Assembly (NCBI GenBank): GCA_030145245.1
Contig: JAQYWC010000073.1
Coordinates: 62,001 to 126,000 of the forward strand
DNA: 64,000 nucleotides
Direction of reading: 5' to 3'
Source of the DNA: Desulfobacterium sp.
GTDB taxonomy: Bacteria; Desulfobacterota; Desulfobacteria; Desulfobacterales; Desulfobacteraceae
This document shows positions 7,592 through 43,474 of this stretch, piece after piece; within the stretch, counting starts at the first letter, position 1; each line of letters starts with the position of its first letter. Both the position numbers and the translations under genes were made by a program. The notes below the pieces were generated by a model, which worked only from the letters and a program-made list of their open reading frames with translations, was not told the origin of the DNA and ran no database searches.

Positions 7592-8497
7592 TTACAACGC
7601 TTCCGGGGTAAAGGCAACAACATCATCAATCGAGGGGGAGTTGGTGAAGAGCATGACGAGCCTGTCCACCCCCAGGGCGATCCCTGCTGTATCCGGCATG
7701 GAACCCAGATCCCTGAGAAAGGGTTCGGGTATGGGTGTGGCGGGTTTTCCGGCACTGGCGCGGATTTCGGCTTCGGCTTCAAACCGCTTTCTCTGTTCCA
7801 CCGGGTCGTTTAATTCGGAAAAGCCGTTGGCAAGTTCCATACCAGCGATGTAGAACTCAAACCGTTCTGAAAAGCGTGGATTCTCGGGCTTCAGCCTTGA
7901 AAGGGCTGCCATGGACGCAGGATAGTCCATGATGCAGGTGGGTCTCCCCCGGCCAAGTCTGGGTTCGATCTCAAAGGCCATGCGTTCGTCAAAACTCCGG
8001 TCAGCCACCGCCCTTTCAAGGGTGGTGTCGGTATACCGGCTGAAGGCATCCGCCACGGTGAGTATCTGCCATGGAGAAGCAAGATCGATGGTTTCGCCCA
8101 TGTAGGTAAGGCTATCCCCGGAACCCGTCTCGTTGGCCACGTGGCGGACGAGGAGGGCGCACTGTTCCATGAGGTTGCGGTAGGTGTGCCCGGCTGCGTA
8201 CCACTCCAGCATGGTGAGTTCCGTCAGATGCCGGTCCCCCCGTTCCTCCTTCCGAAAGCATTTGCAGATCTGGAAGATCCGGTCATGGCCCCTGGCCATA
8301 AGGCGCTTCATGGCAAGTTCCGGGGAGGATTGGAGAAACCATGCTTCTGACTCAAACGAGTCTATGTGGGCCTCGGGTGCCGGGGCTGGAATCCGTATGG
8401 GGGTCTCTACCTCAAGATAGTCGTTTTGGATAAAAAAACTGCGAAGGGCCTGGATCACCCGGGCCCGTTTGGTTAGTTGGTCTTTAAGGTTTTTCAT
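7592..8497 (-). CDS. epmA: Elongation factor P lysine ligase (EpmA/PoxA/GenX)
   Basis: A 301-residue class II lysyl-tRNA synthetase paralogue lacking the anticodon-binding domain. It has motif 2 (FRKEERGDRHLTEFTMLEWY-like; FRKEERGDRH near residue 80), the catalytic-core ending ALGVDRLVMLF (motif 3), and YLEVETPIRIPAPAPEAHI at the start, all characteristic of EpmA rather than LysS. EpmA attaches beta-lysine to a lysine of elongation factor P, helping ribosomes through polyproline. The partners epmB and efp are not in the window. It is preceded on the same strand by the HDAC-like gene, 16 bases away. Confidence 0.9.
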   Translation of the reverse strand: MKNLKDQLTKRARVIQALRSFFIQNDYLEVETPIRIPAPAPEAHIDSFESEAWFLQSSPELAMKRLMARGHDRIFQICKCFRKEERGDRHLTELTMLEWYAAGHTYRNLMEQCALLVRHVANETGSGDSLTYMGETIDLASPWQILTVADAFSRYTDTTLERAVADRSFDERMAFEIEPRLGRGRPTCIMDYPASMAALSRLKPENPRFSERFEFYIAGMELANGFSELNDPVEQRKRFEAEAEIRASAGKPATPIPEPFLRDLGSMPDTAGIALGVDRLVMLFTNSPSIDDVVAFTPEAL

Positions 8498-8513
8498 GGG
8501 AAAGCAAAAGGTC

Positions 8514-9830
8514 TCAGTTCTGTTTGATAATGTAGCGGTCCTGGGTTCGGTCTTGTAGGAATGCCCGGTTGTACCGGTTCATGTCTGCATCCCTGAACAT
8601 GGCATATCCCAGGTCGATGCAGTGCTTGCAAGCGTTTAAAGGGATGTGGACACAGAGAACATGGTTGCCGGTGGAGGCCTGGGAATCGATTTCAAAGGCA
8701 CCTGCGCAATTCCTGCATATCTGGATTCTCTCTTTTTGCCGTTCAAAGATGTTGTCGGTGTCGTAGAATATCTCCCTGTGTCTCTGCTGGATCTCTCCGT
8801 GGGTGCCGGCCTTGGCCCTGAGCTCCTTGCGCTGGCTCCAGTAGCGGTTGATGACATCCGAGGTTCGCTTAATCTTGTCTGTCACATGGGAAGCCTGCTC
8901 AAGGCGCACGGGGTCGTAATCGGGTTCCACCACGGACGAGAAGTCCATGTCAGCCAGGGCAAGGATGATACCGAGGTTGACATAGGGCAGGGCTCCCTCG
9001 ATGGCGTATCCCCCCTCGAGAACCGCAATGTCCGGCTTCAGGAGCCGGGTCATCTCGGCATAGCCCTGGGCGGAAAATTTCATGTTTGTCAGGGGGTCGG
9101 TGTAGTGGTTGTCCTGGCCTGCCGAGTTGATGATGATGTCGGGCTTGAACTCGTCAAGGATGGGAAGCACCGTGTTGTTGATCACATAGAGGTACCCTTC
9201 GGTGGAGGTCCCGGGGGGGAGGGGGATGTTGAGGTTGGTGCCTTTTGCATTGGGGCCTCCCAGCTCCTGAGTGAAACCGGATCCCGGATAGAGGGTCCGT
9301 CCGTCCTGGTGCAGGCTGATGAAGAGTGTGTCGGGATCGTGCCAGTAGATGTCGTTGGTACCGTCCCCGTGGTGGCAATCCGTATCCACAATGGCAACCC
9401 TTCTTACCCCATGCTCCTGCCTCAGGTATTCCACCATGATCGCTTCCATGTTGATGTGGCAGAATCCCCTGCCGCCGTGGGCGACCCGCATGGCATGGTG
9501 GCCCGGCGGCCGGATCAGGGCAAACCCCCGCTCGATCTCTTTTTCCATCACGGCTCTGGCAATGGCCTTGGCACCGCCGGCACTGATGAGGTGGGACTGG
9601 GTGGTGATGGCGGCTTCGTCCGGAACGCAGAAGTGGACCCGCTGGATATCTTCGGCCGTGACCAGGTCGGGCTTATACTCCTCAATGCCGTTGATGTCGA
9701 AGATTCCCTCTTCCATGACCTGGTCCTGGGTGTAGAGGAGACGCTCTTCCCGTTCCGGATGGGTAGGGTCTATGGCCCAGTCAAATGCCGGGAAAAATAC
9801 AAGGCCTGTTTTTTTTGACGCTTTCAGCAT
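8514..9830 (-). CDS. Histone deacetylase/acetylpolyamine amidohydrolase-fold hydrolase with C-terminal Cys-rich tail
   Basis: A 438-residue zinc-dependent arginase-fold deacetylase (AcuC/AphA/HDAC family). Active-site elements are present: RPPGHHAMRV near residue 105, IVDTDCHHGDGTNDIYW (the HHGDG signature) near 150, and SAGQDNHYTDPL near 240, which keeps the zinc-binding Asp. After the catalytic domain a segment of about 100 residues contains ICRNCAGAFEI and NACKHCIDLG, four cysteines in CxxC pairs plus histidines, possibly an extra metal site not found in typical AcuC. The start overlaps the end of the upstream hydantoinase-like gene by 7 bases, so they are translated together. The substrate (acetylated polyamine, acetyl-lysine or acetoin pathway) is unknown. 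Confidence 0.85.
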   Translation of the reverse strand: MLKASKKTGLVFFPAFDWAIDPTHPEREERLLYTQDQVMEEGIFDINGIEEYKPDLVTAEDIQRVHFCVPDEAAITTQSHLISAGGAKAIARAVMEKEIERGFALIRPPGHHAMRVAHGGRGFCHINMEAIMVEYLRQEHGVRRVAIVDTDCHHGDGTNDIYWHDPDTLFISLHQDGRTLYPGSGFTQELGGPNAKGTNLNIPLPPGTSTEGYLYVINNTVLPILDEFKPDIIINSAGQDNHYTDPLTNMKFSAQGYAEMTRLLKPDIAVLEGGYAIEGALPYVNLGIILALADMDFSSVVEPDYDPVRLEQASHVTDKIKRTSDVINRYWSQRKELRAKAGTHGEIQQRHREIFYDTDNIFERQKERIQICRNCAGAFEIDSQASTGNHVLCVHIPLNACKHCIDLGYAMFRDADMNRYNRAFLQDRTQDRYIIKQN

Positions 9831-15914: not shown

Positions 15915-16427
15915 TTATCGCTCAGGGTCGTAGGGGTACCAGTCGGAACGCCTCAGCCGCACTACCTTTAAGACTGCAATCTCGCAATTGGTTGTGTTGA
16001 ACACGACTTTTCTGCCGATCTCTCCCCCCACATCCTCGGAAACGACGCGGATTTTTTGTTTTTTCAGCATGGTTCTGGCCGTTTCAAGGTTGGTCCTGCC
16101 GATATCCCGGGACATGATCTTGGGGTGGAAAGCGCCCCCGACCACCTGGGCTTTCATGTTTTTAAGGGTGGCGCCGTTTTTGAGCATCATCCGTATCAGG
16201 GCTGTTGTGGCAACGTTTCCGTATTTTGCCGTCGGTCTCTTCGAAGGTTGGGCACAAGGAAAGAGAAAGTGATTCATTCCTCCGATCCCAAGCTTCCTGT
16301 CGTAAAGGCAGATTGAGACGGACGATCCGAGCACGGCGGATATGGCAGTGGGGTGACGGGGCAGGTAGATGAAGCCTGGTTTCAACAGATACTCGCCTAC
16401 AAGGGGGGGGGACGCGTTTTTTTCCAT
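15915..16427 (-). CDS. cheD: Chemoreceptor glutamine deamidase CheD
   Basis: A 170-residue CheD. The catalytic Cys lies in LGSSVSICLYD near residue 38, the His in GGMNHFLFP near 53, and the conserved Thr/Asn region in GRTNLETARTML near 111; this is the Cys-His-Thr triad of the family. CheD deamidates glutamines on chemoreceptors and interacts with CheC/CheY-P in other bacteria. The rest of a chemotaxis operon is absent; the nearest related genes are the receiver-SBP fusion at 20.5 kb and a chemoreceptor at 58.4 kb. It is transcribed divergently from the ABC-type cluster that follows, with 217 bases between them in which I see no clear element. Confidence 0.9.
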   Translation of the reverse strand: MEKNASPPLVGEYLLKPGFIYLPRHPTAISAVLGSSVSICLYDRKLGIGGMNHFLFPCAQPSKRPTAKYGNVATTALIRMMLKNGATLKNMKAQVVGGAFHPKIMSRDIGRTNLETARTMLKKQKIRVVSEDVGGEIGRKVVFNTTNCEIAVLKVVRLRRSDWYPYDPER

Positions 16428-16644
16428 TTCTGATGGCCCGGTGTGTTCGTAATATGTTAATGATGGTTGTCGGATCTGTCTGAAAAAAACCCTTCATTTT
16501 TGTAACCTATTCTCTCTTCCAGATCAAGGATCAATCCCATATAAACGTTGCACAGTACAGCTCTCTTGTGTTAAAAAAAGGTTTTTAAGGACAGCTCAGG
16601 GAACTAGTAATGGTGTTAATGGGGGCGGACAGACAGGAGAGTTG

Positions 16645-17568
16645 ATGGGGGAAAAACCGGTTGTCAGAATCGGTCACCTGAAAACGGTTGATCACCTTGC
16701 CTTGGGCATTGCAGCCTTTGGTCCTTTGGTCTGGGGAAGGGAGCTTGACCACCTGTTTCTTGAGCCTGTTTCCATGGTTGCCTGGAATCAGGTCCTGGAG
16801 CGGTTGTGTGACAAGGGGATTGACGGGGCATTCCTTCCCGCTCCTGCCGCCATGGACCTTATCTCGGCCGGAGCGGATATAAAGATTCTGCTCCAGGGAT
16901 CAAGGTCAGGGGCAGGGCTTGTCAGGCGTCAGGGTGCGAACATAAAGACTGTGGCTGATTTCAGGGGGCGGACGGTCCTTGTGCCCCATGAGCTGTCAAT
17001 ACACACCCTTCTTGTTCATCGGCTTATGGCATCCGCGGGGTTGAGGGCCGGGGCAGACCCGAACGCCGATGTTATCCTTGAATCCATAGCACCGGCAATG
17101 ATGATCGAGGCAATGGAATATGACAAGGAGGGAAGAATCGGCGGTTTTATTGCACCGGAACCATTTGGGACCCTGGCCGTGGAATCGGGCATGGGAGCCA
17201 TGGTCTGTGATTCGGAAACCTTGTGGCCGGGGCACCCTTCGTCTGTGTTTGTCCTCCGTGGCGCCGTGATCAATGCTTTCCCTGAAGCGGTGTTTGAGCT
17301 TGTGAGGAATCTTGTCAATCCTGGGGCGCGCTCCAATGACCTTGTTGCTGTGGCGGCTTCGTTCCTGGGGCAGGTTCCATGGGTTGTTGAAAAGCTGATT
17401 GGTAAACAGGCGGCAGGGCGGGAAGCGGGGTGTTGTCTTCCCGATATTAAATCGTTCGAGATTATACATGATTATATGAAAGAGGAGTTGGGACGTGTTG
17501 GTTGTGAAACGGATGTTGCCGGATGTCTCGAGTTAAGTTTCGCGCGCAAAGCAGGGGTTGTAAGATAA
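16645..17568 (+). CDS. NrtA/SsuA-type substrate-binding-domain protein without export signal
   Basis: About 307 residues of NMT1/THI5-like periplasmic-binding-protein fold, yet the protein begins MGEKPVVRIGHLKTVDHLAL with no signal peptide, lipobox or transmembrane helix, so it should be cytosolic. The two-lobed domain starts at once with RIGHLKTVDHLALG and continues through GAFLPAPAAMDLIS and GFIAPEPFGTLAVE to HPSSVFVLRG. It aligns along its length with the binding domain of the receiver fusion at 20516-21889 and with the Tat-exported binding protein at 18336-19541. ATG at 16645 is preferred over TTG at 16642 because of AGGAGAG just upstream. It opens the ABC-type operon. Role inferred: intracellular ligand sensing or a co-opted transport subunit. 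Confidence 0.75.
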   Translation: MGEKPVVRIGHLKTVDHLALGIAAFGPLVWGRELDHLFLEPVSMVAWNQVLERLCDKGIDGAFLPAPAAMDLISAGADIKILLQGSRSGAGLVRRQGANIKTVADFRGRTVLVPHELSIHTLLVHRLMASAGLRAGADPNADVILESIAPAMMIEAMEYDKEGRIGGFIAPEPFGTLAVESGMGAMVCDSETLWPGHPSSVFVLRGAVINAFPEAVFELVRNLVNPGARSNDLVAVAASFLGQVPWVVEKLIGKQAAGREAGCCLPDIKSFEIIHDYMKEELGRVGCETDVAGCLELSFARKAGVVR

Positions 17569-17571
17569 ATT

Positions 17572-18339
17572 TTGAAAATCGAATTTGATAAGGTGTCAAA
17601 GAGTTACCTGAGATCCGACGGAACCAGGCACCCCGTGTTTAATGATGTTTCCCTTTCCATTAACCAGGGGGATTTTGTGATCTTCCTTGGGGAATCCGGC
17701 TGCGGCAAGACAACGTTCCTGAATATGCTTGCAGGCTTTGAACTTCCCACCTCCGGAACCATTCGGGTTGACGGCAAAGAAGTGCGGGATATCCATCCCT
17801 CGAGGGCCATGCTGTTCCAGCAGCCGACCCTTATCCCCTGGCTCACCGTGCGGGAGAATGTTTCCTACGGGTGCCGGTTAAGGGGGGATTGTGACCGGCT
17901 CAGCTACAGGGTGACCCAGTTTATCGAAATCATGGGGCTTTCAGGGTTTGAGGATTCAAAACCTGCGGAACTCTCCCTGGGTATGGCCCAGCGGGCCTGC
18001 CTTGCCCGGGCACTTATGGGAAATCCGGAAATACTGATCATGGACGAACCCTTTGCCTCCCTGGATACCTTTACAAAGGCCCATATCCAGGAGGAGATGG
18101 TTAACCTCTGGCTGAGCGAGCAGTTTACGGTGGTGTTTGTTACCCATGACATCGAAGAGGCCACTTTGCTGGGCAATCGCGTGGTGCTTCTGGGCGGTTT
18201 TCCCGTGGGTATCATTGATACCTTTGACATCGATCTTGAATATCCCAGGGATGTAAATGATCCCAGGTTTAAGAGGTACAGGCAGGAGATCCTGAAAACA
18301 TTCAAGCGCTCCTATGTGGGCAACAGGCGGTTTCTATGA
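17572..18339 (+). CDS. ABC transporter ATP-binding protein, NrtD/SsuB/TauB type
   Basis: A 255-residue ABC ATPase: Walker A GESGCGKTT, Q-loop MLFQQPTLIPWLTVREN, signature LSLGMAQRACLARALMG (a variant, LSLGMAQR in place of LSGGQRQR), Walker B ILIMDEPFASLD and the switch His in FVTHDIEEATLLG. It belongs to the nitrate/sulfonate/taurine (and bicarbonate) importer group. The start is TTG at 17572, three bases after the preceding stop, without a strong ribosome site, so translation is probably coupled. Its end overlaps the next gene by 4 bases. With the Tat binding protein and the permease it forms a complete importer; the substrate is unknown. Confidence 0.9.
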   Translation: MKIEFDKVSKSYLRSDGTRHPVFNDVSLSINQGDFVIFLGESGCGKTTFLNMLAGFELPTSGTIRVDGKEVRDIHPSRAMLFQQPTLIPWLTVRENVSYGCRLRGDCDRLSYRVTQFIEIMGLSGFEDSKPAELSLGMAQRACLARALMGNPEILIMDEPFASLDTFTKAHIQEEMVNLWLSEQFTVVFVTHDIEEATLLGNRVVLLGGFPVGIIDTFDIDLEYPRDVNDPRFKRYRQEILKTFKRSYVGNRRFL

Positions 18340-19541
18340 AAACATCCGACCCCGGCAACATTCACCGGCGGCGATTCCTAGGGCAGGCAGCCGCAACCCT
18401 GGGCGCCTCCCTGTTTGCTCCGGTTCTACCGGCGTTTGCCGCTAAAGAGGAGCTTCGGCTCGGATATCTTCCCATCACCGATGCGGCGCCGCTTCTCATC
18501 GCCCACAGTCTCGGTTATTTTCTTGAAGAAGGGCTTGTTGTGCCAAGACCAGTTATGGTAAGGTCATGGAATGTTTTGACAGAGTCGTTCATGGCGGGCA
18601 AGTTCGACCTTACCCATATGCTGTTTCCCATACCCGTATGGATGAGGTTCAGGCAGAAGATGCCTGTCAAGGTTCTGGGATGGGATCACACCAACGGAAG
18701 CGCCTTGACCGTGCACGGCGATTCAGACATCAGGGGGTTTGCCGATCTTGGCGGGAAGCAGATTGCCGTTCCGTCCTGGTATTCCACACACAATCTCGTT
18801 CTTCAGATAGGATTAAGGGCCCGGGGGCTTACGCCGGTTATCAAGCCCCAGAACAGTCCCCTGAAACCCAATGAGGTGAATCTTTTTATTCTTCCGCCGC
18901 CGGAGATGCCGCCGGCACTCCTCGGCCGAAAGATCGACGGCTTTATTGTTGCCGAACCGTTCAGCGCCCTTGCAGAGATGAAGCTTCGGGCAAGGATCAT
19001 GAGGTTTACCGGGGATGTCTGGAAAAACCATCCATGCTGTGTTCTGGTGACCCGGGAGGAACTGACCCGGAGGAGACCCGCATTTGTTCAAAAGGCTGTC
19101 AATGCAGTGGTAAGGGCCCAGCTCTGGTGCGAACAGAACCGGGAACAGGCGGCCCACATATTGAGCCGTGACGGTGAGGGGTATCTTCCCGTTGAGGCAA
19201 AAGTACTCAAACGGGTTTTCACGGGGTACGATCTCAAGGAGTATACCACGGGGCCTCTGCCAAGGGCGATCATGCATCCCGAATGGGATATCCAGAGAAT
19301 CGGGTTTCAGCCCTATCCGTTTCCTTCGGCCACCCGGTTTGTCCTGGAGCAGATGGGGAAAACCCGTGTGGAAGGTGACAACAGCTTTTTGAAAAATATT
19401 GATTCGGCACGGGCTGCAGGTGAGCTGGTGGATGACAGCTTTGTGCTGAACGCGATGGATAGTAATCGGGAGTATGGACGTTTTTTCCCTTCAGATGTGG
19501 CGCAACCTTTATCAAGGGAAGAGATTATTGAAATCGATTAA
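18336..19541 (+). CDS. Tat-exported ABC transporter substrate-binding protein (NrtA/CmpA-like)
   Basis: A 401-residue NMT1/THI5-like binding protein. The N-terminus has a twin-arginine signal: HRRRFLGQAAATLGAS followed by a hydrophobic stretch and FAPVLPAFA, so it is folded before export. The mature domain begins ELRLGYLPITDAAPLLIAHS and contains GFIVAEPFSALAEMK and WKNHPCCVLVTREEL. The NHPCCV motif, with two adjacent cysteines, is shared with the receiver-fused homologue. Tat export suggests a cofactor or metal held by the protein, as in some nitrate-type binding proteins. It overlaps the ATPase gene by 4 bases at its start and the permease reading frame at its end. Ligand not identified. 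Confidence 0.88.
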   Translation: MKTSDPGNIHRRRFLGQAAATLGASLFAPVLPAFAAKEELRLGYLPITDAAPLLIAHSLGYFLEEGLVVPRPVMVRSWNVLTESFMAGKFDLTHMLFPIPVWMRFRQKMPVKVLGWDHTNGSALTVHGDSDIRGFADLGGKQIAVPSWYSTHNLVLQIGLRARGLTPVIKPQNSPLKPNEVNLFILPPPEMPPALLGRKIDGFIVAEPFSALAEMKLRARIMRFTGDVWKNHPCCVLVTREELTRRRPAFVQKAVNAVVRAQLWCEQNREQAAHILSRDGEGYLPVEAKVLKRVFTGYDLKEYTTGPLPRAIMHPEWDIQRIGFQPYPFPSATRFVLEQMGKTRVEGDNSFLKNIDSARAAGELVDDSFVLNAMDSNREYGRFFPSDVAQPLSREEIIEID

Positions 19542-19548
19542 CAGCTTC

Positions 19549-20358
19549 ATGGAAAAAGTCTCCAAGGCGAACTGGGTCAACCTTCTGTTTGACCGTGAAG
19601 AGCCGGGGGTCCGGTATGAGATCCTTGGGATGGTGCTCTTTGTATTTGTCTGGGTCGTGGCGTGTACCCTTTTTTTCACCGGTCAAAAGTTTGAATCCTT
19701 TAACGGCTTTTTGCCGTTGCCGACGTTGAAAGCCCTCTTTCTTGCGGCAACCGAAGGGCGCTTCTGGGTGTCGGTGTGGGCCAGCCTCAGGCGGGTGCTC
19801 ACCGGGATCACCATTGCTGCGGCCATTGGTATTCCCGCCGGTATGATCATTGGTTTTTATCCTAAGTTGAGACGTCTTTCCTACTCCCCCATCCAGTTCT
19901 TACGAATGATCAGCCCCCTGTCATGGATGCCGGTTGCCCTGCTTGTGTTTGCAAGTTTTGAATCTGCGATCAACTTCCTGATCGTTATGGCCACAGTCTG
20001 GCCGATCATGCTCAATACGGCAATCGGGGTAATGAGTGTTGATACAAGCTTGGTGCGCATGGCGTTGAACCAGGGGGCAACCAATCTTCAGCTCATGCGG
20101 ACCATCATCGTGCCCGCTTCATTGCCCAATGTGATGGCAAGCCTTCGCCTGGCATTGGGGGTGGCCTGGATTGTGCTCGTCCCTGCTGAGTTTCTGGGGG
20201 TCTCAAGCGGTCTTGGGTATCTGATCAACGATGCCAGGGATACCATGGCCTATGACAGGCTCATGGCCATGATCATCGCCATCGGCATTCTTGGGTTCCT
20301 GCTTGACAGGGCGTTGCAGAAGATCCAGAGGCTGGTCAGCTGGTCCTGGGTCGAATAG
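19549..20358 (+). CDS. ABC transporter permease, NrtB/SsuC type
   Basis: About 269 residues of BPD_transp_1 permease with a first membrane span at VRYEILGMVLFVFVWVVACT and further spans around GITIAAAIGIPAGMIIGF, PVALLVFASF, FLIVMATVWPIMLNTAIGV and LGVAWIVLVPAEFL. The EAA-type loop that contacts the ATPase is MALNQGATNLQLMRTIIVPA. The reading frame is open back to an ATG at 19474, which would overlap the binding-protein gene by 68 bases; ATG 19549 (or TTG 19528, near GGGAAGAG) gives a more usual start, and the choice is uncertain. It is the last gene before a clear terminator, closing the importer operon. Confidence 0.85.
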   Translation: MEKVSKANWVNLLFDREEPGVRYEILGMVLFVFVWVVACTLFFTGQKFESFNGFLPLPTLKALFLAATEGRFWVSVWASLRRVLTGITIAAAIGIPAGMIIGFYPKLRRLSYSPIQFLRMISPLSWMPVALLVFASFESAINFLIVMATVWPIMLNTAIGVMSVDTSLVRMALNQGATNLQLMRTIIVPASLPNVMASLRLALGVAWIVLVPAEFLGVSSGLGYLINDARDTMAYDRLMAMIIAIGILGFLLDRALQKIQRLVSWSWVE

Positions 20359-20515: not shown

Positions 20516-21889
20516 ATGGCAGTAGATCCAAAGATAAAAATTCTTGTTACAGACGATTCCGGCACCATGCGCATGATGTTCAAGCAGATGTTGAACAAGG
20601 CGGGGTTTGAGAATATTGTCATGGCTGTGAACGGGGACGATGGAATCGAAAAGGTAAAGGCGGAGGAGCCTGATCTTGTCATCAGCGATTGGAATATGCC
20701 CCAGAAGGACGGACTCGAGTTTCTCCAGTGGCTCAGGAGTCAGGAGGCGTACCGGGCACTTCCTTTTATCATGGCAACGGCCCAGGCTGACAAGGGGCAG
20801 CAGATCATCATCATGGAGGCTGGAGGAAACGGCCATGTGCCTAAACCCTTTGACTCGAAACAGATCAAGGACGCCATCGAAAAGGTGTTTGCCCCGGAGG
20901 CCGGAGCTGGTGTTGTTAAAAAGGAAAGGCGGGTCGTGGACGGCAAGGTGGAACTCAATGTGGCCCACATCCAGATCACCGACCATCTTGCCTTGGGCGC
21001 TCTGAAGCACAGGATCGACCTGGGCGAGGTAACGCCAAAACATTTTGTTCTCAATACCGATCGCAAGCCCGGGTGGAATCCCATCCAGGAGGGGCTTGAA
21101 AGCGCCGAACTTGACGCTGCCTTTGTTCTGGCTCCCATTGCCATGGACCTCTTTGCCTATGATTCACCCATTCGGCTGGTGCTTTTGGCCCACAAGAACG
21201 GCAGTACTTTTGTAAGAAGCCGCCATTATGACCCCAGGTTTGATTCTCTGCAGAGCTTTTACAAGTACAAGGTCGTGGATATTCCCCATAAGATGAGTGT
21301 TCACCACATGCTGGCCCACCAGTTTTTGAAAGAGCTGGGACTGAAGCCTGGAGTGCCCGGGAAGAAAGCCATTAATGTCAGGTTTGAGGTCGTACCTCCC
21401 ATCAAGATGCCCGGCATCATGAAGGAGAACGAGGACGTTGCAGGATTCATGGTTGCTGAGCCCATCGCAACCAAGGCCATTGCAACCGAAGTCGGCAACC
21501 TCGAGTTTGTCTCCTCCACCCGCTGGGAAAACCACCCCTGTTGCGTGGTTGCCATGCAGCAGGATTTTATTGAAAACTATCCTGAGGCAGCCCAGGAGTT
21601 TGTTTCCATGATTGTCGAATCCGGCAAGTATGTCGAAGAAGACAAGGCAAGGGCGGCCGACATTGCCGTGAAGTTCCTCGATCCCGAAGGCAAGATGGGG
21701 CTCAATCCGGCCGTGTTGCAGAAGGTGTTTTCACAGCCCCAGGCCATCCGCATGGATGACCTTTATCCGGTGAACGAGGATTTGGATAAAATCCAGCGGT
21801 ATATGCACGATGTCATGGGGATCGGAAAGATTATCGATCTCGAGAAGTTTGTGGATAAGCGATTTGCAGATGTGGCATGTAACCGGTAA
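20516..21889 (+). CDS. CheY-like receiver fused to an NrtA-type substrate-binding domain
   Basis: A 457-residue protein with an unusual architecture. Residues 1-128 are a complete receiver domain: acidic pair D13/D14 in VTDDSG, phospho-acceptor Asp58 in VISDWNMP, Thr88 in IMATAQ and Lys110 in VPKPFD, all typical of CheY. After a short linker, residues about 145-440 form a full NMT1/THI5-like binding domain (VAHIQITDHLALGALK, AAFVLAPIAMDLFA, GFMVAEPIATKAI, RWENHPCCVVAMQQDF). There is no signal peptide, so ligand binding must occur in the cytoplasm. It lies just beyond the terminator of the ABC importer that encodes two paralogous binding domains. An AAGGAG precedes the ATG. Inference: it links an intracellular ligand to a phosphorelay or chemotaxis. 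Confidence 0.85.
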   Translation: MAVDPKIKILVTDDSGTMRMMFKQMLNKAGFENIVMAVNGDDGIEKVKAEEPDLVISDWNMPQKDGLEFLQWLRSQEAYRALPFIMATAQADKGQQIIIMEAGGNGHVPKPFDSKQIKDAIEKVFAPEAGAGVVKKERRVVDGKVELNVAHIQITDHLALGALKHRIDLGEVTPKHFVLNTDRKPGWNPIQEGLESAELDAAFVLAPIAMDLFAYDSPIRLVLLAHKNGSTFVRSRHYDPRFDSLQSFYKYKVVDIPHKMSVHHMLAHQFLKELGLKPGVPGKKAINVRFEVVPPIKMPGIMKENEDVAGFMVAEPIATKAIATEVGNLEFVSSTRWENHPCCVVAMQQDFIENYPEAAQEFVSMIVESGKYVEEDKARAADIAVKFLDPEGKMGLNPAVLQKVFSQPQAIRMDDLYPVNEDLDKIQRYMHDVMGIGKIIDLEKFVDKRFADVACNR

Positions 21890-21936: not shown

Positions 21937-22482
21937 ATGAAGGTAACGGATCCGGAAATTATCAGAACCGGAGAGCGGGATTTGATTGATGCCGTCAAGG
22001 AGGATCTTGACTGGGATGCTGTCAGGGAGATCGTAAAGAAAAAGATCAACATCTCCTCGGTTGACTCAACCGGGGGGGAGATCGTTGTCCATGATAATCA
22101 GGTGGCGTTCCGGGTGGATCTTGAGCTCAAGATCGATATGAGCCTGATGTTTGATCGTGATGGAAACCATATCCCGGAACCGGAAGGGGCTCCAACCGGT
22201 TCCGGTGAAATCGAAGCGCCGGGAATATCACCTGGCATGGAACCGGAACCTGGGCTTTTAGCTAAGGATTCAGAAATAGGGCCGGAGATTCTTGACGGGG
22301 ATGATCTTTCCCCTGAGGGAGTCGAGTTCGGCCTTGACGATTTTTCCGCAGAGGACCCGGAGATCAATCTCGATGATATTGCCCTGGGTGATGACGGAGA
22401 GGTTGAAAACCTGGATGACGATATCGATGAGATTCTCAAGGAAAGCCGGGAATTCTGGGAAAAGAAAAAGACAGAAGAGTAG
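21937..22482 (+). CDS. Acidic protein of unknown function
   Basis: A 181-residue protein I do not recognise. The N-terminal 75 residues look folded (MKVTDPEIIRTGERDLIDAV, then IVKKKINISSVDSTGGEIVV and VAFRVDLELKIDMSLMFD). The remainder is very acidic and low in complexity, with runs such as LDDFSAEDPEINLDDIAL and NLDDDIDEILKESREF, and is probably disordered apart from a last helix. There is no signal peptide or membrane span. ATG at 21937 follows GGGATGAGGTG; the stop codon directly abuts the ATG of the next gene, so the two are co-translated. Acidic tails of this kind often mediate protein contacts; no function can be assigned. Confidence 0.75.
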   Translation: MKVTDPEIIRTGERDLIDAVKEDLDWDAVREIVKKKINISSVDSTGGEIVVHDNQVAFRVDLELKIDMSLMFDRDGNHIPEPEGAPTGSGEIEAPGISPGMEPEPGLLAKDSEIGPEILDGDDLSPEGVEFGLDDFSAEDPEINLDDIALGDDGEVENLDDDIDEILKESREFWEKKKTEE

Positions 22483-43001: not shown

Positions 43002-43117
43002 GACACTGGTCTGTTGAACCTGCCGCCATTCCAGGTACTTGAAATTTCACATGATTGTTGCACATTTATTGCAATGGTTGTAGAGTAGGTTCGAATAAAC
43101 AGATTAAAGGAGTTAAA

Positions 43118-43474
43118 ATGGGTTTATCAGTCAACAGCAGCAGCGCATCGGCCCTCAAGGCATTTGGAACCAAGCTGGCAGTTTCGGCCAACAACGTTGC
43201 CAATGTCCAATCAGAGGATTTCAAAAAGAGCCGGGCGCTCGTTACAGAGGGCGAGAACGACAGTGTCAAGGTTGATATCTCAAAGGTCAATACCGACGGC
43301 CCCATTGTCACGGAGACCTTTAACAACAAAATGGTTCAAAGGGAACTCTCCAACACGGACATTGCCGAAGAATTCACCCAGCAGATCATTACCCAGTATG
43401 GCTTTGAGGCCAACACCAAGACCATCCGGACCAAGGATGAGATGCTGGGAACCCTCATCGATATCATGGGTTGA
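43118..43474 (+). CDS. Short flagellar rod/hook-family protein (FlgB/FlgC-like)
   Basis: A 118-residue protein whose N-terminus SSASALKAFGTKLAVSANNVANVQSEDFKKSR is the signature of axial flagellar proteins (ANNVAN motif). Its C-terminus ends in LSNTDIAEEFTQQIITQYGFEANTKTIRTKDEMLGTLIDIMG-like sequence, the paired helix of rod and hook proteins, so both terminal helices are present with a very short middle. Length is close to FlgB/FlgC. No flagellar operon is around it; metF lies upstream and sensor kinases downstream. Start: ATG 43118 after AAAGGAGTT. It may be a rod paralogue, as some Desulfobacterota have such orphan proteins. Confidence 0.8.
   Translation: MGLSVNSSSASALKAFGTKLAVSANNVANVQSEDFKKSRALVTEGENDSVKVDISKVNTDGPIVTETFNNKMVQRELSNTDIAEEFTQQIITQYGFEANTKTIRTKDEMLGTLIDIMG

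Follow-up and report, generated by a model that had tools for sequence, protein, structure and literature searches.

A CheY-like receiver fused to a cytosolic NrtA-type solute-binding domain in Desulfobacterium sp., a likely chemosensory response regulator

The DNA analyzed here, a stretch of 64,000 nucleotides from a Desulfobacterium sp. contig (JAQYWC010000073.1; hereafter the window), encodes a protein in which a CheY-like receiver and a cytosolic solute-binding protein (SBP) domain are joined in a single chain, here called REC-SBP (Table 1). This protein is probably a chemosensory response regulator, belonging to the CheW-less branch of a CheV-like receiver-SBP-CheW family. At the sequence level, the evidence consists of the architecture itself, intact phosphorylation and cleft residues, and relatives fused to CheW or CheA. 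In addition, copies of the gene lie inside che clusters, its presence coincides with that of fliM, and it shows a conserved linkage to an ABC importer with the same putative ligand residues in its SBP.

Table 1. Features of the REC-SBP locus and of a relative fused to CheA modules
Feature	Position	Strand	Evidence or remark
CheD-type receptor deamidase gene	15915..16427	-	PF03975, 4.8e-22; divergent from cassette
Second signal-less cytosolic NMT1_2 protein	16642..17568	+	Heads cassette; 308 aa; PF13379, 8e-24
ABC transporter ATPase, nitrate/taurine/sulfonate type	17572..18339	+	PF00005, 4.7e-34
Exported binding protein of ABC importer	18336..19541	+	PF13379, 1e-46; Tat-type N-terminus by eye
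ABC importer permease	19474..20358	+	PF00528, 7.1e-22
Receiver-SBP fusion (REC-SBP)	20516..21889	+	457 aa plus stop, one frame
CheY-like receiver domain, residues 9-122	20540..20881	+	PF00072 Response_reg, 5.1e-25
Receiver key residues	Asp58 20687-20689; Thr88 20777-20779; Lys110 20843-20845	+	
Cytosolic NrtA-type solute-binding domain, residues 141-457	20936..21886	+	PF13379 and fold
Conserved protein, no Pfam family	21937..22482	+	Homologue in 42/46 close-relative loci
Receiver-SBP fused to CheA modules (H-kinase_dim, HATPase_c, CheW)	L072:8001-11213		Reaches contig end

Both domains are read in one frame, as the preliminary description had claimed. Pfam matches the binding domain to PF13379 (NMT1_2; residues 145 to 384, 1.8e-27, 97.2 bits versus a cut-off of 24.7), while PF09084 (NMT1/THI5) is absent from the matches of this protein at E≤0.1. 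The original NMT1/THI5-like label is therefore only partly retained: the domain is of the NrtA type, and NrtA-type / NMT1_2 is, judging from these matches, the better name. Pfam finds no CheW domain in the window protein. SBP domains of this kind normally work outside the cell. In this case, a simple hydropathy scan and inspection of the N-terminus, which is the receiver, yielded no signal peptide, other export signal, or membrane segment, in line with the earlier reading. The highest 19-residue hydropathy equals 1.34, versus 2.75 for the neighboring permease, and the Tat-type RRRFL N-terminus recognized by eye on the adjacent transporter SBP is not present on REC-SBP.

The AlphaFold2 model, a check that the preliminary description had proposed, is confident for both the receiver and the two-lobed NrtA-type fold (mean pLDDT of 92.5, pTM of 0.86). 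Superposition of the receiver gives close agreement with CheY3 of V. cholerae (3to5; Z 23.3, 0.9 Å, 124 residues) and CheY of E. coli (3chy; Z 22.9, 1.9 Å, 128 residues). CheYs are also its best relatives in the PDB (1.8e-27), and the first response regulator under another name is 5t3y (1.1e-16), with a designed protein, 9xzo (2.1e-23), ranking in between. Within its own genome, the best receiver-only match is a 124-aa CheY-like protein (L150:7293-7667, 39%), the gene of which adjoins flagellar-type ORFs recognized by eye. The window itself contains a small protein (43055-43474) with an N-terminal half that resembles, again by eye, a flagellar rod-type protein. For the SBP part, the closest solved fold is 3un6 (Z 37.4, 1.9 Å, 287 residues), followed by NrtA (2g29; Z 36.2, 2.3 Å, 301 residues), CmpA (2i4b; Z 35.0, 2.2 Å, 299 residues), and the regulatory domains of CmpC (9uai; Z 34.6, 2.6 Å, 298 residues) and NrtC (8wm7_C; Z 33.4, 2.4 Å, 301 residues).

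A search for the domain architecture, likewise suggested beforehand, showed that the fusion recurs: a single scan of public genomes gave 60 loci, of which 46 are 65 to 97% identical (one of them partial), one is 53% identical, and 13 are 46 to 49% identical. Full-length copies in many genomes rule out that a frameshift or an assembly error joined two genes, a concern the preliminary description had raised. Of 59 evenly sampled genomes of the family, 42 contain REC-SBP by a hand count that required both domains; the number is 44 when every match at E≤1e-30 is counted, including those to standalone SBPs. In G021, which is among the 42, the gene is split into two contig-edge fragments. REC-SBP is also found in L030 and L075, and the latter copy, being in two frames, is interrupted. 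The copy at 53% identity (L060) is assigned to a Spirochaete and stands on a 3.8-kb contig of a MAG that is possibly misbinned.

Standalone cytosolic SBPs, approximately 40% identical to the SBP part, occur at L106:8558-9505 (G000 C15), L024:13033-13971, and L114:8271-9218. Each adjoins a MerR-like protein with a long linker; the Pfam MerR_1 match is above the cut-off in L106 and just below it in L024, and the protein in L114 was assigned by similarity. Another NMT1_2-type protein, outside the window (L107, approximately 8100-9000; G000 C19:28178-28843), contains an in-frame TGA immediately ahead of a DP motif, for which selenocysteine, a decayed gene, and a sequence error are alternative explanations.

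More distant relatives carry additional chemotaxis domains. Across the phylum, 21 of 395 evenly sampled genomes match at E≤1e-60, the own genome included, leaving 374 without a match. The 20 other genomes span nine families, and all 21 of their loci contain a CheW domain (L130 and L138 were checked separately), including a CheW-form fragment that has no receiver part (L137). Similarly, of the 13 loci at 46 to 49% identity, 10 continue into CheW and L072 into CheA modules (Table 1); this set overlaps with the phylum set (the SBP parts of L119 and L067 are identical). Of the remaining two, L064 reaches the end of its contig and L065 stops soon after the SBP part. In a tree of SBP parts (59 rows), the receiver-fused forms make up one clade (97/94), inside which the short CheW-less form, together with L057 and L060, is a single clade (100/99). 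This topology, rooted at the midpoint on a long branch, suggests that the short form lost CheW, the deeper order being weakly supported. The tree leaves out 25 close copies, most of the importer and cytosolic SBPs, and the window protein, for which L017 (97% identical) stands. Two of its rows, L036_A_RECSBP_7749 and L056_SBPcyt_5457, are importer SBPs despite their labels; L137, labeled solo, is the CheW-form fragment, and L064 and L065, labeled class A, sit among the CheW forms.

An alignment of 36 relatives was used to inspect the functional residues of both domains. The receiver had been described as complete, and its D58, T88, and K110 are invariant, as is D14 of the acid pair D/E13-D14, which is kept as a pair in 36/36. 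The position of the CheY switch Tyr is occupied by His in 21 and by Phe in 12 of the 36, with His in the branch of the window protein, so that binding to the motor is not assured. In the SBP part, W187, H226, S230, H258, A314, E315, H340, P341, C342, and C343 are likewise invariant; 35/36 relatives retain H263, H264, and H268. The cleft residues examined are thus retained in 35 or 36 of the relatives, and the earlier caveat that they might be lost in all homologues does not apply. This bears on the idea that the SBP domain has given up ligand binding and works as a docking scaffold, placed in relatives between the receiver and CheW. We regard this as very improbable, given that the putative ligand positions Trp187, His226, Ser230, Ala314, His340, Cys342, and Cys343 (36/36) and His263 (35/36) are preserved, and that the SBP part is better conserved between the two classes than the receiver (49% versus 41% identity).

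The nature of the ligand can be approached by comparison with NrtA, which binds nitrate through Trp102, Gln155, His196, Gly240, and Lys269, according to passages of PMC13204499. By alignment, with numbering by hand, these positions map to Trp187, Ser230, His263, Ala314, and Cys343. Trp and His are kept; Gln is replaced by Ser, Gly by Ala, and Lys by Cys. With two of the five NrtA ligands kept and Cys in place of Lys, nitrate is an unlikely ligand. Alignment of the importer's exported SBP to 3un6 yields the same putative Trp/Ser/His/Ala/Cys set, and REC-SBP and the importer therefore probably share one ligand, which is probably not nitrate. Taurine, sulfonate, bicarbonate, metal, and sulfur compounds are candidate ligands. 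The conserved set rich in Cys and His, together with 3un6 (a Staphylococcus aureus structure with zinc in its title) as the closest fold, gives only a hint. By alignment, 3un6 has Trp, His, Ala, and Cys at the ligand positions, but differs in having Asn where the REC-SBP family has Ser and in lacking a receiver; its entry title describes an import-system component.

The gene order shared by the window and most close relatives is CheD (reverse strand), cytosolic SBP, ATPase, exported SBP, permease, REC-SBP, and small protein. Across the 46 close-relative loci, several of which lie on short contigs, the permease and the small protein are each present in 42, the exported SBP in 41, and CheD in 24; one of the four loci without a permease (L022) starts at a contig edge. 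The cytosolic SBP heading the cassette has a homologue in 36/46 loci, one of which (L024) is counted for its standalone SBP instead. Its called start is followed by an ATG at 16645. The group to which it belongs has the longest end branches in the SBP tree and is 26 to 31% identical to the SBP part of the fusion. The called start of the permease overlaps the SBP gene, which suggests that translation perhaps starts at an internal ATG near 19549. The ATPase falls below the cut-off in the 25 NCBIfam matches listed, and the same holds for all listed matches to importer models (Sao, NtrCD, taurine), so that no substrate name could be given to the importer. At the genome level, the importer SBP is present in all 42 REC-SBP genomes plus G024.

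This linkage could mean that REC-SBP is a transporter governor, which responds to the imported solute (and to phosphorylation) by turning the adjacent ABC importer on or off, with chemotaxis being secondary or a mere source of phosphate. In addition to the permease in 42/46 loci, the presence of the NrtC and CmpC regulatory domains among the closest folds favors this explanation. Passages of PMC13249358 ascribe nitrate sensing and gating of the ATPases to the regulatory domain of CmpC, and report that of NrtC as a PII target. These domains resemble REC-SBP in being cytosolic, of the NrtA type, and encoded with an ABC importer, but they are fused to the transporter ATPase instead of a receiver. 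A governor role is nevertheless unlikely. Neither an importer permease nor an exported SBP was found in the 13 loci at 46 to 49% identity, and the distant relatives carry CheW or CheA. Moreover, G007 and G008 have an extra REC-SBP copy inside a che cluster, and in G043 a copy lies in such a cluster with the importer on another contig.

The chemotaxis context of these copies agrees with the chemosensory assignment. In L146 (genome G008, outside the set of 46 loci), a copy sharing 77% identity with the window protein stands at the end of a same-strand run of CheW, MCP, CheA, a small ORF, CheD, HDOD, a receiver, CheX, CheB, CheR, CheD, and REC-SBP, where CheW was assigned by similarity and HDOD by eye. 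L146 is the third copy in a cluster: among the 46 loci, the gene is surrounded by a che cluster only in L024 and L052, and L021 lies near one. L024 and L147, whose contigs have the same length, look like one locus, as do L052 and L148. The order in L024/L147 is CheW, CheA, CheD, CheX, CheB, CheD, REC-SBP, and further along come the standalone SBP, CheR, and another CheA. CheA-type genes flank REC-SBP on both sides in L052/L148, and in L021/L149 a cluster of CheA, CheW, MCP, CheR, CheB, and CheD ends approximately 5 kb away. Among the distant forms, an MCP gene is directly upstream in L128, and further neighbors are CheW and MCP (L064), CheR and CheA (L063), MCPs (L069), CheA (L110 and L112), CheX (L125), and FlgD/FlgE (L062). 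A che or MCP gene occurs within the fetched flank in 3 of the 13 loci at 46 to 49% identity and in none of the other 10; for the phylum loci, this flank is only approximately 1.5 kb. In the window, REC-SBP has no CheA, CheW, or MCP gene as a neighbor, and only CheD is near.

The distribution of REC-SBP follows that of motility genes, based on presence lists compiled by hand for the 59 family genomes. REC-SBP and fliM occur together in 41 genomes, REC-SBP alone in 1, fliM alone in 5, and neither in 12 (41/46 with fliM versus 1/13 without; Fisher 6e-8, ignoring shared ancestry). The sole REC-SBP genome without fliM, G039, is 84% complete. For CheA, the corresponding counts are 42, 0, 9, and 8 (1e-5, again ignoring shared ancestry). 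Presence and absence of REC-SBP both occur within two genera (g13 and g14). The importer SBP tracks fliM as well (both in 42, SBP only in 1, fliM only in 4, neither in 12; 2e-8), and co-occurrence alone therefore does not separate the regulator from the importer.

Downstream of REC-SBP, the small conserved protein has an N-terminal region that is conserved, a linker that is acidic and variable, and a C-terminal helix bearing the motif DDDIxDILKESRxFW, as seen in 23 aligned homologues. Its model is of low confidence (pLDDT of 59.6; C-terminal helix at residues 159 to 180). A loose docking motif near the C-terminus is present in 19/23 homologues, versus a background of 5/163 open frames, which comprises four orthologues (one of them in L113) and one unrelated frame. 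We presume, from comparison with ILSQDEVDSLL near the start of FliM in three relatives (L143-L145), that this helix resembles the CheY-docking peptides of FliM and CheZ. As a lead only, the protein is a possible docking partner of the receiver; no homologue of it lies beside the REC-SBP copies in L024 and L052.

A literature search aimed at the architecture, covering titles, abstract starts, and passages of open-licence papers, found no paper describing a receiver-SBP protein, in keeping with the preliminary description. The broader claim of an undescribed sensory system needs to be narrowed: the cytosolic receiver-SBP fusion with an intact cleft stands, but its link to chemotaxis had been missed, and signal-less NrtA-type sensors are already known in NasS and the NrtC/CmpC regulatory domains. 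The passages describing NasS-NasT, CmpC/NrtC, and CheV mention none that combines receiver and SBP in one chain. From its sequence, REC-SBP appears to resemble parts of each and yet to miss their defining features, namely, the CheW of CheV, the ANTAR of NasT, and the Lys and Gln of nitrate-type NrtA. With CheY it shares the receiver fold, the phosphorylation residues, and the type of sequence, and differs from it in the fused sensor domain and in having His where CheY has its switch Tyr. The domain order of CheV is CheW-receiver. REC-SBP relatives also unite receiver and CheW in one chain, some of them near che genes, but they add a cytosolic SBP in the order receiver-SBP-CheW, and the window member is without CheW. 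CheV itself is described as a CheW-CheY fusion in passages of PMC8396549.

NasS-NasT, and with it AmiC-AmiR, invites another interpretation. According to passages of PMC3795266, NasS is a cytosolic NrtA homologue that, on nitrate, releases NasT, an ANTAR protein with a CheY-like receiver. REC-SBP, which brings the same two kinds of module together in a single chain, could be a fused switch of this kind, in which the SBP gates the receiver by contact, without phosphorylation, and acts on gene expression via a partner. This seems quite improbable: Pfam finds no ANTAR, RNA-binding, or DNA-binding domain in the window protein, the phosphorylation residues are kept in 36/36 relatives, and the NasS-NasT system comprises two proteins with an ANTAR output, in contrast to the single chain and chemotaxis links of REC-SBP. 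The Lys of nitrate-type NrtA and NasS is, moreover, replaced by Cys.

For the likely chemosensory role of REC-SBP, we infer the following mechanism. The importer would take up the ligand, and the SBP domain would close on it in the cytosol. The closed domain would change how the receiver accepts, keeps, or displays phosphate. The receiver, presumably phosphorylated by CheA, would either address the motor or serve as a phosphate sink, and ligand occupancy inside the cell would bias swimming. A more specific version, possible though doubtful, is an "import, then steer" system, in which the importer and the cytosolic REC-SBP read-out, with its pocket like that of the importer SBP, would feed the chemotaxis phosphorelay, and the protein at 21937-22482 would dock on the receiver via its FliM/CheZ-like C-terminal peptide. 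If it exists, such a system would represent a new class of chemosensory input, one independent of membrane receptors.

Accounts of chemotaxis usually have cells sense the outside via membrane receptors, sometimes with periplasmic binding proteins. REC-SBP may let bacteria of the Desulfobacteraceae type steer by a small molecule that they have already taken up. Coupling a binding-protein fold in the cytosol to a CheY receiver, to CheW, or to CheA would provide a direct route from uptake to steering. The architecture spans several families of a phylum to which sulfate reducers belong, and it offers a testable entry into metabolism-dependent taxis.
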